From contig CAJWPJ010000007.1 of assembly GCA_913045115.1 (NCBI GenBank), forward strand, positions 1 through 49,174: a stretch of DNA of 49,174 nucleotides, given 5' to 3'. Below the pieces are notes generated by a model that saw nothing but the letters and a program-made list of their open reading frames with translations, was not told the DNA's origin and did no database searches. Below, in pieces: positions 1 through 49,174 of this stretch (its first letter is position 1; the number at the start of each line of letters is the position of its first letter). Both the position numbers and the translations under genes were made by a program. This DNA comes from an uncultured Gammaproteobacteria bacterium (lineage in GTDB: Bacteria > Pseudomonadota > Gammaproteobacteria > GCA-002705445 > GCA-002716945).

Positions 1-506
1 CTAGCTTGTAACCCCATATGCGAATCTCCCATATCACCATCAATTTCGGCTTTTGGCGTGAGTGCTGCGACGGAATCAATAACTAATGCAGAAATTGCGC
101 CTGATCTGACAAGCGTGTCAGCTATCTCTAGTGCTTGTTCACCGGAATCGGGCTGTGATAGAAGAAGCTCATCAATATTCACACCCAGATTTTCTGCATA
201 TTTGGGATCCAATGCATGCTCAGCGTCTATAAAAGCTGCTGTGCCTCCTTGTTTTTGTGCCTGCGCTATCACTTGTAAGGCCATCGTCGTCTTACCGGAT
301 GATTCTGGTCCATATATCTCTATCACTCTCCCTTTTGGAAGTCCTCCTATTCCCAATGCACCATCTAAAGTAAGAGAACCGGTAGAAATAGACTCAATAT
401 CTGGATACGCTGATCCTGATCCTAGTTTCATTAAGGCGCCCTTGCCGTGATCCTTTTCTATCTGACTTATTGCTGAGTCTAATGCTTTTTGTGTGTTCTC
501 TTCCAT
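1..506 (-). CDS. recA: RecA recombinase, N-terminal part (runs off the left edge of the window)
   Basis: Reverse-strand translation begins [31 protein letters not shown]..., with Walker [10 protein letters not shown] and [20 protein letters not shown] Shine-Dalgarno just upstream. Confidence 0.97.
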
Positions 507-533
507 AATTCTCCTCGGTGTAGGTTGTAGAGT

Positions 534-43526: not shown

Positions 43527-44649
43527 GAAAAAAAGAATATTTATTATTGCTGGTGAATCTTCTGGAGATCAGCATGCTGCAGCTTACATAAGAGAGCATC
43601 AAAAAATAAATCCAGAAATTATCTTCGATGCATTTGGTCAAAAAGAACTCAAGGATTCTTCAGCTAATATAATCTATGATACTGAGAGAATATCAGTAGT
43701 TGGTATATTTGAAGTTTTATCAAAATATGTAGAAATAACTAAGGCGTTAAAAATAGCAAAAGATCATATTAATAAAACTAGGCCCGATGTTATTATTTTA
43801 GTTGATTATGTTGAATTCAATTTAAAGATTGCAAAATTTGCTAAAAGCTTAGGTTTACGAGTAATATTCTATGTGGCTCCTCAGCTATGGGCATGGAGAG
43901 AAAATAGAGCTCGGAATCTCGTTGAAAATATAGATCAGCTCGCTGTAATTTTTCCATTTGAAGAGAAATTTTTTAAAAAATATACAAGTAACGTTGTCTA
44001 TGTTGGGCATCCATTATTCGAGAATCAACATTTAATGGAATCATTAAAAGATTACGATGATCGAGAGATAGACCTTGGTATTTTCCCAGGAAGTCGTGAA
44101 TCTGAAATTAAGAATAATATATATTCCATGCTTGATTGTATTCAAAAAAATAAAAAGGAAAATATTAAGATATTTTATGCTAACCAAATATCACAAGATT
44201 ATCTTATTAAGTTATTGCCCGAAGAGTATCACTCTATGCTTGAGTCAGGGAGAGACCTTGATAAAGTTAGTTCTTGTAAAAAAGCATTATGTGCATCAGG
44301 GACTATGACACTAGAACTAACGATATTAGAAGTGCCGATGGTTGTAATGTATAGATTGTCTTATCTAACATATTTCATAATGAAATCATTGGTTAAGCTT
44401 AAACACATAGGGTTGGTAAATCTAGTCCTAGGCGAGGAAATCGGTTCAAGACCTGTTGTTAAAGAGTACATACAACCATCGTATTCAGATCAAGTAGATA
44501 TAATGGTGGAACTAAATAAAATAGATAATGATCAAATTTATAGAGACAAACTTTCTAAACATTTTAAAGAAATAAAAGATAAGTTATCGACAAAGTCTAA
44601 ATACAAATTAAAAGATATAGCGGAGAGTATACTTAAAACTAACGAGTAA
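43513..44649 (+). CDS. lpxB: Lipid-A-disaccharide synthase
   Basis: IIAGESSGDQHAAAYI; YVAPQLWAWRENRARNL; YVGHPLFEN; ASGTMTLELTILEVPMVVMYRLS; 14-nt overlap with gnnB. Confidence 0.96.
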   Translation: MSMSEKKRIFIIAGESSGDQHAAAYIREHQKINPEIIFDAFGQKELKDSSANIIYDTERISVVGIFEVLSKYVEITKALKIAKDHINKTRPDVIILVDYVEFNLKIAKFAKSLGLRVIFYVAPQLWAWRENRARNLVENIDQLAVIFPFEEKFFKKYTSNVVYVGHPLFENQHLMESLKDYDDREIDLGIFPGSRESEIKNNIYSMLDCIQKNKKENIKIFYANQISQDYLIKLLPEEYHSMLESGRDLDKVSSCKKALCASGTMTLELTILEVPMVVMYRLSYLTYFIMKSLVKLKHIGLVNLVLGEEIGSRPVVKEYIQPSYSDQVDIMVELNKIDNDQIYRDKLSKHFKEIKDKLSTKSKYKLKDIAESILKTNE

Positions 44650-45409
44650 TACCTCGCTCACTCTCCAGGGTGAATTTAACAAATTTTTCGGTATAAACAT
44701 TAGATAAATTAGATTCTCTGTATATTTTCTCTCTTTCGCTTTTTGTTTTTTTAGATTTCACAAATAATTTAAATGTTTTCTCTAAGTCCGATATTATATT
44801 TGCGTCGAAGCCTTTTCTTTTAAGGCCAATTGAATTTATTTTATATGCTTTAGCATGATTACCAGCAACTAATGTATAAGGGGTTACGTCTTGTGAGATT
44901 ACGGTACCAAGGCCAGAAAAAGCATGCTCTCCTATGTGACAAAATTGATGGACTAAGGTAAAACCACCTAAAGAAACATTTGAGTCAAGGTTAACATGTC
45001 CTGCTAAACTAGCTCCGTTTGATAAAATACAATCATCTTCGATAGTACAATCATGAGCGATGTGAGTATATGCCATAAATAAATTACTATTTCCTATTCT
45101 TGTATCAGATATGCCATCTAATGTTCCTCTGTGAATACTACAGTACTCTCTAAATGTATTATTATCACCAATGGTACAATTTGTTTTTTCGTTGTTAAAC
45201 TTTAAATCTTGCGGTGTTTCCCCAATAGTTGCAAATTGAAAAATTATATTATGTTTGCCGATTGAAGTATTTTCCCTGATAAGAGCATGCTCTCTAATAA
45301 TTGTGCCCTCCCCTATACGAACATTTTTATCAATAATCGCAAAAGGTCCAATTTCTACGTTATCAGCAATTTCAGCCGATGGATGAACTATAGCTGTCTC
45401 ATGTATCAT
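44639..45409 (-). CDS. lpxA: UDP-N-acetylglucosamine O-acyltransferase family LpxA (possibly N-acyltransferase on UDP-GlcNAc3N here)
   Basis: [30 protein letters not shown] hexapeptide repeats; YTHIAHDCTIEDDCIL; LVHQFCHIGEHAF; VAGNHAKAYKINSIGLKRKGF. Confidence 0.96.
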   Translation of the reverse strand: MIHETAIVHPSAEIADNVEIGPFAIIDKNVRIGEGTIIREHALIRENTSIGKHNIIFQFATIGETPQDLKFNNEKTNCTIGDNNTFREYCSIHRGTLDGISDTRIGNSNLFMAYTHIAHDCTIEDDCILSNGASLAGHVNLDSNVSLGGFTLVHQFCHIGEHAFSGLGTVISQDVTPYTLVAGNHAKAYKINSIGLKRKGFDANIISDLEKTFKLFVKSKKTKSEREKIYRESNLSNVYTEKFVKFTLESERGITR

Positions 45410-45830
45410 TTTTAGGTCTAATTGCACCAATCAAATCTGCTTTACAAACAATCTCATCGTCAACTTTGCACTCTGCACTAAATTTATGTACTTCACTTTT
45501 ACTTTGAATCAGTTTTGCATTAATTAAAACGATATCCCCCGGCACTACTTGTTTTTTAAATCTCGCATTATCAATACCTACAAAATAATATAAGTGTTTC
45601 GACATATCTCTGTTGTTACTCTCCACATCAAGAATAGCTGTCGCTTGCGCCATTGCCTCAAGAAGAAGTACTCCTGGGAAAACTGGATAACCTGGAAAGT
45701 GTCCTTGAAAAAAAGGTTCGTTGTTACTCACATTTTTTTGAGCGGTGATTTCCTTACCTTTTTTAACATCAATTATTCTATCAATTAGAAGAAAAGGGTA
45801 TCTATGCGGTAGGTAGTTCTGAATAGTCAT
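45399..45830 (-). CDS. fabZ: 3-hydroxyacyl-[ACP] dehydratase FabZ
   Basis: [38 protein letters not shown]. Confidence 0.97.
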
Positions 45831-46720
45831 TTTTGTGTTTCCCTCTTTTTAAAAAGATTTCTGAATGATACTTGATTTCTTCGCCAATTACGAACTGTAT
45901 CAGCTGGCATTCCTGAAGCATACTCTCCATGAATTTTTATTGACTTAGTAATCATGCTCATTCCATGTATATGGACGTCGTCACATATCGTAATATGACC
46001 ATTTATACCTACTCCACCACCAATAGTACAATTATTACCAACTGTGGTACTCCCTGCTATTCCTGTACAAGCTGCAATTGCTGTATTGCGGCCAATAGTT
46101 ACATTGTGAGCAATATGAACTAGATTATCAATCTTACAATTATTTTTTAAACAGGTGGTATCGATCATTCCTCTATCGATAGTAGTACCGCTTCCAATTT
46201 CTACATCATCCTCTATGATAACTTTGCCAATATGAGGTATTTTCCGCCATAAGGCCTGATCTAAGTATAGGCCAAATCCGTCAGAGCCAATTACAGCATT
46301 TGGATGTATAATCACATTATCACCAATCACTGTATTATGATTAATGAATACTCCTGGATAAATTAGACAATTTTTTCCAATTTTCACATTTTCACCGATT
46401 GTTACATGCGGGTGATCTTTCGATAATGTGTAATTATAGTCCTTGGATGCCTCTGCAAGTAATTTTGCAACAGCTCTCATAACGTTAGATGTTTTGAAAA
46501 GTATAGTATTATCAATTTTTGCAGTGAATAATTCATCAACAATCAAAGCGCTGAATTTACTTATATCCAGGGATGACTCTTTAGATATAAAACCTAAAGA
46601 ACCATCAACAGGATTCGATAGAGTAGAAATTGTGTCAAATTTTTGAGTTGTATGCTTAGAACATTGTGCGTCAAGTAAACTCTCTAGTTCACTAGAATTA
46701 TATGCTTTAGCTAGATTCAT
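45827..46720 (-). CDS. lpxD: UDP-3-O-acylglucosamine N-acyltransferase LpxD (short form, 297 aa)
   Basis: [46 protein letters not shown]; hexapeptide repeats; between skp and fabZ. Confidence 0.94.
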
Positions 46721-46721
46721 T

Positions 46722-47225
46722 TTAATTAAGTTTATCTATGATTTCTTGTGTTATATCAACATAAGTCTTAGCGTATAGTGTAGTGCCGTCAGCCCTCAGA
46801 ATTAGATCATAATCATTATCTTTAGCATAATCATTTATCGCATCCTCAACTATTTTTCTTATTCTATTTAGTTCAGAATTCTGTTTAGTTTGAAGTTCTT
46901 TTTGAAGGCTTTGTTGTTTTTCTCTAAATTCTTTTTCAATTTTATTAATTTCATTAATTTTGTTCTTGCGTTCATCTTTTGACATCACGCGCTCATTCTT
47001 TAGATAATCATCATTTAGCTTATTCCATGAAGTCTCTATTTTTTTAAGTTCGTCTGCCTTAGGTTTAAACTCATTTTTCATTTTATTTTGAGATTCTTTA
47101 TAAATAGGTATTTCTTTAAAGAGAATATCCAATTTCACGACACCTATTTTTACCTCTGCAAAAACAGACTGTGATGATAAAAGCATTATCAAAGATAGAA
47201 AGATAAAATATTTTTTGTATATCAA
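46722..47225 (-). CDS. skp: OmpH/Skp family periplasmic chaperone
   Basis: Signal peptide [37 protein letters not shown], Lys/Glu-rich coiled coil; next to bamA and lpxD. Confidence 0.9.
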
Positions 47226-48700
47226 AATGCACCTCCAAGTGAGAATATTACAGGTTTTGTATCATCACCTTCTTTTGATTTAAATGCATCTACAAAGCCA
47301 ATTGATACTGCGCCTACAGGAGTTCTAAAATTTGCTTGAATTCCATAACTACCACGTAATTCACTATAACTAAAATCTCCGATATCTTCAAACACATTAC
47401 CAAAATCTACGAAAAGAGATGCTCTAAAGTTTCTCTGATCTTGACCTAAAAAAGGTGGGGGAGGGAAAATCCAATTTGACTGGATAACAGAAAGGAAGTC
47501 ACCTCCTATTGCATCACATGTTTTAGCTGTACAAGTAGTGTTATTCCTCAATGGACCCAAACTATTTGAATCAAAGCCTCTGACAGTTCTATCGCCTCCA
47601 GCAAAGAACTTATCATGAAATGGCAGTTTTGATATTTCTATGAGTCCAATACCAAGTCCAAGTTGAGGTTTAGTTTGAAGAACAGTATTCCAATCAAACA
47701 TATTAAAGAAATTTAGTTTGAACGGTCTATTATACTCACCAGCAAGTCGAATCGATAGATATGAGTAGTCTAAATCAGGCTGCAAGTAGAGAGTAGAGAC
47801 AATACTCTGTCTTTTACCCGAGGATGCATAAACTATCCTATCCCTAGTATCTTCAGTATAACTTCCAGAAAACCTAAACCCTAAATGAGTGTTGCCGAAT
47901 TCATCTAGGAAGCTAGTCACATTTGATGGTGACCCTGCGGTGGTGGAATAGTCAGTGATAATTAGTTCTGCGCCATAGCCATAAAATTTTGTTTCAGAAA
48001 TGGGTACACTATATGACACTCCATAAGCAAAAGTATCTGATAGATATGATGCTGTAGAAGTCCCTGAGACATCTGTTTCGCTGAAAACAAGACTCGTAGT
48101 TTTAGAAATACCATCTCTAGTAAAATATGGATCTGTATTACTGTACCTTAAAAGTTTTTTGTAGGAGGATTTCTCGAGTTCAAGAGCTACGTTGTTTCCT
48201 CTACCAAGAAAATTATCTTGTTGAACCTTGATGTTAAAAATAGTTCCTGATGAATCAGAATAACCAGCGCCTACTTTAAACTCTCCAGATTGAGTTTCAT
48301 CTATTATAAAATCAACATCAATTAAGCCTAAAGATTCATCGACTATAGTCTTTTTTACTTCAACATTATTCACAAATTTTAAACGTTGAAGTCTTATTTT
48401 AGATCTATCTATTTTATTTTCTGAATATATAGATGATTCAAATTGTCTTAATTCCCTTCTATACACTTCATCATTTGTTTTAGTATTTCCAACAATATTG
48501 ACTCTTCTAACATAAGATTTAGATTTGGGGTTAACACGAAAAGTTATATCTGCAAAAAAGGTATCTTGATCTAAATCAACATTATATACTATATCTGGAA
48601 ATGCATATCCATTTTCGCCAAGAAAGAATTTGATGCTCTGCTCTGTGTTTTCAATACTAGCGAGTGAAAAAGAAGATCCAGGTTTGAGGTTGAAATTCAA
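47222..48700 (-). pseudogene. bamA: BamA outer-membrane assembly protein, C-terminal part only (end of POTRA4, POTRA5, Omp85 barrel), in-frame 3' portion of a chimeric ORF
   Basis: ENGYAFPDIVYNVDLDQDTFFADITFRVNPKSKSYVRRVNIVGNTKTNDEVYRRELRQFESSIYSENKIDRSKIRLQRL (POTRA4/5); QQDNFLGRGN; NPYF-like DPYFTRDGIS; FFAGGDRTVRGFDSNSLGP; C-terminal aromatic AF. POTRA1-3 and signal peptide absent. Confidence 0.85.
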
Positions 48701-49174
48701 GATATTTTTAAAAAGAAACCACCTCCTATTAAATAATTGATAATTAATAATTAAAAGAATAACAAAGAATAAAGTTAAAATTTTATAAGAAATAATTTCA
48801 TAAAAGAAATTTTTTTTAGAAAACAAATATAATAACATTGATATTATCAAAATATAAACTGAAGTTGCTCCGAAATAATACCATCCCTCAGCAAATGAAA
48901 ATGGGGGATAGACCCAAGATCCAATTTGATCATACAAATTTGAACTTCCATGAAGTGAAAAATTAATATCAGATAAATTTCTATCTCTTGTTATTTCCAT
49001 TAATTCTGAAGTTTTGAGATAAATCGGGCTAAATAAAATAGCAGCCAAAATTGCCGGCAAAGATACTTGAATAAAAAAAGTTATATTTGATACGAAATTA
49101 TAATTATATGTACCATAAATATAATTTTTGTTTTTAATAATTAACAAAAATAAAATGTATACAGAAAATAGTAT
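48701..49174 (-). other. Fragment of a polytopic membrane protein (YfhO-like/GT-associated in character), open to the right window edge and in frame with the BamA fragment
   Basis: FFIQVSLPAILAAILFSPIYLKTSELMEITRDRNLSDINF...VYPPFSFAEGWYYFGATSVYILIISMLLYLFSKK...ILTLFFVILLIINYQLFN: several TM helices, no BamA similarity; frame stays open through the last 27 nt (ILFSVYILF). Confidence 0.6.

Follow-up and report, generated by a model that had tools for sequence, protein, structure and literature searches.

A BamA–Membrane Protein Fusion at a Contig End of an Uncultured Gammaproteobacterial Genome Is Very Probably an Assembly Chimera

The window, i.e., the whole stretch of DNA analyzed here (49174 bp), corresponds to the complete contig C7 of a 1.05-Mb genome of an uncultured gammaproteobacterium, which is distributed over 49 contigs. 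At one end of this contig, an ORF (47222–49174, minus strand) extends without interruption over 650 codons between the contig edge and a stop codon at 47222, and joins the 3' part of bamA to a fragment of a membrane protein gene. We conclude with high confidence that this ORF is a chimera produced at the contig end during sequence assembly or, with lower probability, at the stage of library preparation or amplification; it is almost certainly neither a new BamA architecture nor a real feature. This conclusion follows from the presence of the front of a closely related bamA on another contig, and from the fact that other contigs of the same genome break in a similar way. A chimera of assembly or amplification was also the reading preferred in the initial annotation, and the bamA front on contig C46, the organization of related genomes and the recurrence of such faults all speak in its favor.

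Structure of the Fusion ORF

BamA is an essential protein that inserts outer-membrane proteins. The ORF had initially been read as BamA from the middle of POTRA4 to the end of the barrel, and the profile matches bear this out. The BamA profile TIGR03303 matches residues 161–650 of the ORF with its positions 263–741 (of 741), and residues 156–650 were assigned to BamA. The barrel is complete (Omp85, PF01103, matched over its full length, profile positions 1–325, by residues 321–650; E-value, 5.8 × 10−40), as is POTRA5 (PF07244). The match to POTRA4 starts only at profile position 23 of 79 (23–78), so the cut lies inside the domain. Of the five POTRA domains of BamA, the ORF therefore contains POTRA5 and a part of POTRA4 only. 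No signal peptide precedes its BamA part, and the N-terminus of the ORF itself lies beyond the contig. Over 495 aa, the BamA part shares 73–82% amino acid identity with the BamA proteins of the same genus. The features of this contig end are listed in Table 1.

Table 1. Features at the bamA end of contig C7 (positions in the window; the slash marks the join).
Feature	Position	Strand	Basis
lpxD, fabZ, lpxA	44639..46720	-	ORFs; colinear with four same-genus genomes
skp/ompH, next gene downstream of bamA, also in relatives	46722..47225	-	ORF; synteny with G001, G003, G005, G006
bamA 3' two-thirds (end of POTRA4, POTRA5, Omp85 barrel, stop)	47222..48709	-	TIGR03303, PF01103, PF07244 matches
Junction, CTTTTT/AAAAATAT, exact base ambiguous in a short T/A run	48705..48716	-	Alignment with relatives
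Foreign tail (polytopic membrane protein, about 155 residues), open at the contig end	48710..49174	-	Homology searches, composition, hydropathy

The existence of a join, which had been placed near 48700 at NF/NL, was confirmed, and its position was not: in the alignment with relatives it falls at WFLF/KNILNF (about 48710), with an ambiguity of a few T bases. At this point C7 departs from the BamA alignment, in which C46 and the related genomes G001, G003 and G005–G008 go on with POTRA4. Since lpxD-fabZ-lpxA is the canonical downstream order, the 3' part of bamA sits in its normal place. Taken together, the ORF shares with BamA the end of POTRA4, POTRA5, the complete barrel and the normal skp-lpxD-fabZ-lpxA neighborhood, but on C7 the signal peptide, POTRA1–3 and the start of POTRA4 are lost, and unrelated membrane-protein sequence is found instead.

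The chance that two coding regions are joined in frame and on the same strand is about 1 in 6, so the open frame across the join is no evidence of selection. This open frame is all that favors a functional new architecture, in which the ORF would encode an inner-membrane-anchored derivative of BamA. Against such a derivative stand the partial POTRA4, the lack of a signal peptide before the periplasmic part, a tail that is still open at the contig edge and the absence of any conserved relative, and its probability is close to nil.

At the other end of C7, the window begins (3–533, minus strand) inside what by eye is recA, with a cinA-like gene adjoining it; nothing unusual was seen there.

Membrane-Protein Tail

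The front of the ORF was described in the initial annotation as 150 or more residues of a multi-TM protein reaching the window edge, in good agreement with the roughly 155 residues and three hydrophobic segments (Kyte-Doolittle values above 1.6) found here. At 22%, the G–C content of this tail is below that of the bamA part (34%) and of the window (32%). Among 200000 first-order Markov sequences matched to it in composition, only 6 had an open frame as long as this one. Being too long for chance and containing hydrophobic segments, the frame of the tail represents real coding sequence of another gene.

When the two parts of the ORF were searched separately, as had been proposed, BamA families were found on the C-terminal part only, and none of the Pfam and NCBIfam families matched residues 1–155. 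No second copy of the tail was found in its own genome, and no homologue outside that genome was detected among the 25 genomes of the genus and order. In the class and phylum samples, only insignificant matches were obtained (E-values > 0.003; 25–38% identity); the search of viral contigs, genome contigs and phages revealed no homologue, and that of the PDB nothing convincing. The tail may resemble YfhO-type membrane proteins, a likeness for which Pfam gave no match.

Comparison with Related Genomes

The order-level comparison set comprised 25 genomes, that of the window among them. A bamA match is present in 23 of the 25 (again including the window's own genome). Outside the window, complete bamA frames encode 783–809 aa; the shorter ones (460, 547, 590 and 704 aa) lie at contig edges according to their coordinates, which was checked directly for G005 (590 aa) and G008 (460 aa). 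The order dxr-rseP-bamA-skp-lpxD-fabZ-lpxA is unbroken in G001, G003 and G006, and is partly preserved in G005 and G008. C7 is colinear with these relatives up to the join. The occurrence of the same architecture in related genomes had been named as an observation that would mark the fusion as genuine; no fusion of BamA with a membrane protein was found among the relatives in the order.

Missing Front of bamA

A search of the window's own genome for POTRA domains yielded four matches, all in a 328-residue frame that is cut off by the end of contig C46 (3602 bp). This frame is the N-terminus of BamA (TIGR03303 positions 6–295), it has by eye a signal-like beginning, and rseP is located directly upstream. 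C46 thus carries the POTRA1–4 region of a sister allele, and the bin contains complementary parts of bamA, namely positions 263–741 of the profile on C7 and 6–295 on C46. The proposed search for bamA elsewhere in the assembly was therefore successful for the 5' part next to rseP and unsuccessful for a complete second gene: only one Omp85 barrel, that of C7, was found in the genome.

The absence of rseP and dxr from the window, pointed out in the initial annotation, is real and has a single reason, i.e., the contig ends there; rseP is found on C46 and dxr at the far end of C23, followed there by no more than the first 38 bp or so of rseP. In consequence, C23, C46 and C7 together carry dxr, rseP, the front of bamA and its back in the order that is unbroken in the relatives, with the downstream side of the rseP-bamA-skp-lpxD-fabZ-lpxA cluster on C7 and the upstream side, as a sister allele only, on C46.

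C46 and C7 overlap by 117 bp of bamA with 79.5% DNA identity, and within this overlap C7 is the closest to C46 among the genomes compared (the next, G008, shares 71.8%). With such a value, C46 does not belong to the same molecule as C7 and was rejected as its exact other half; by itself it cannot prove what precedes the bamA of C7. C46 and C23 overlap by 99 bp with 88.9% identity, and the match is exact over the final 47 bp of C23. In the bamA overlap, the alleles of C7 and C46 lie far outside within-species identity, and the simplest reading is that the bin mixes sister populations. C46 is itself probably chimeric: its sequence gives way, about 25 codons short of the end of dxr, to a segment that carries a gene for a FadA-type thiolase (C46 2335–3602), so that rseP-bamA is joined to foreign-looking sequence. 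This thiolase had no match at an E-value ≤ 1 × 10−20 in other genomes of the order.

Other Contig Ends

For comparison of the contig ends, 1 kb was taken from each end of all contigs, and the resulting 98 ends were compared with one another. Twelve of them, forming six pairs, share exact 55-mers, which indicates a de Bruijn assembly with k = 55. At the end of C3, the front of a rluB-type gene is cut after EIIKY, and the remaining 633 bp of the contig are unrelated and contain an ORF on the opposite strand. The gene resumes at the end of C16, and the two contigs overlap by 98 bp with 86.7% identity; the end of C3 is therefore probably another chimeric contig end. The facing ends of C10 and C25 are two alleles of ispH (201-bp overlap, 77% identity), a sign of a composite bin. 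The fault of C7 is one of several in which a conserved gene is broken and overlaps divergently with another contig, and an unrelated tail is present in C7, C3 and C46.

In these respects C7 resembles the chimeric contig ends of short-read assemblies of mixed populations, which share a break in a conserved gene, an unrelated tail and a missing part located on other contigs; no departure from this type was seen. The two parts of the ORF have separate origins, their fusion is absent from relatives, the displaced part occurs elsewhere in the assembly (the sister allele with rseP on C46, the end of dxr on C23), and similar faults are found at C3/C16 (rluB) and at the thiolase join of C46, with related divergent-overlap ends at C10/C25. 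A literature search on strain-driven chimeric contig ends returned no paper matching every term.

A chimeric molecule formed before sequencing, by ligation, multiple displacement amplification or PCR, would be equally an artefact, as a sub-case of the same reading, and is considered rather unlikely. Microhomology-driven chimeras would also agree with the short AT-rich run at the junction, and the closest named relative, AG-349-E17 (contig AG-349-E17_NODE_18), bears a name in the style used for single amplified genomes. However, diverged alleles together with 55-bp end overlaps are typical of de Bruijn assembly of mixed populations, and a single molecule explains foreign tails at several contig ends less well than graph errors do.

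A genuine rearrangement, by which the 3' part of bamA came to lie in frame behind a membrane-protein gene while the essential function is left to an intact second bamA (the C46 allele), appears very improbable. The open frame across the join and the diverged bamA front in the same bin would be compatible with it; however, the bamA of C46 stops at the contig end, and there is only one Omp85 barrel in a genome estimated to be 96.65% complete. Moreover, the break falls inside POTRA4, no relative has the arrangement, a foreign-looking join occurs on C46 as well, and the fault is repeated on C3. In E. coli, each of the five POTRA domains of BamA proved essential (PMC3871556). One would not expect a protein without POTRA1–3 and a signal peptide to take over from BamA. 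That a BamA C-terminus is really expressed in frame with a polytopic inner-membrane protein, in a cell that also carries an intact, diverged bamA, is hardly credible.

Proposed Origin of the Chimera

Under the assembly reading, the true gene would be an ordinary bamA in the order dxr-rseP-bamA-skp-lpxD-fabZ-lpxA, expected to work as BamA does elsewhere. In the region of rseP and the front half of bamA, the data very probably contain diverged sister populations; there the assembler would have lost the path of the main genome and extended the contig by about 463 bp, into a membrane-protein gene that is AT-rich and unrelated. The join would thus have been made by the assembler and not in the library, and the tail may originate from another member of the community.

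The fusion is biologically unimportant and matters for data quality: it would be a mistake to read the predicted 650-aa protein as a new Omp85 architecture. Despite an estimated completeness of 96.65% and contamination of 0.26%, the bin appears to combine sister populations and to have several chimeric contig ends, and genes located at such ends of its contigs therefore need care.

The parallel ends of C17/C30 and C24/C25 were disregarded as evidence for a composite bin. By eye, their starts look like paralogues of alkane monooxygenase (AlkB), with shared 55-mers at the points where they meet; for a 1-Mb genome, several alkB copies, if true, would be of interest.
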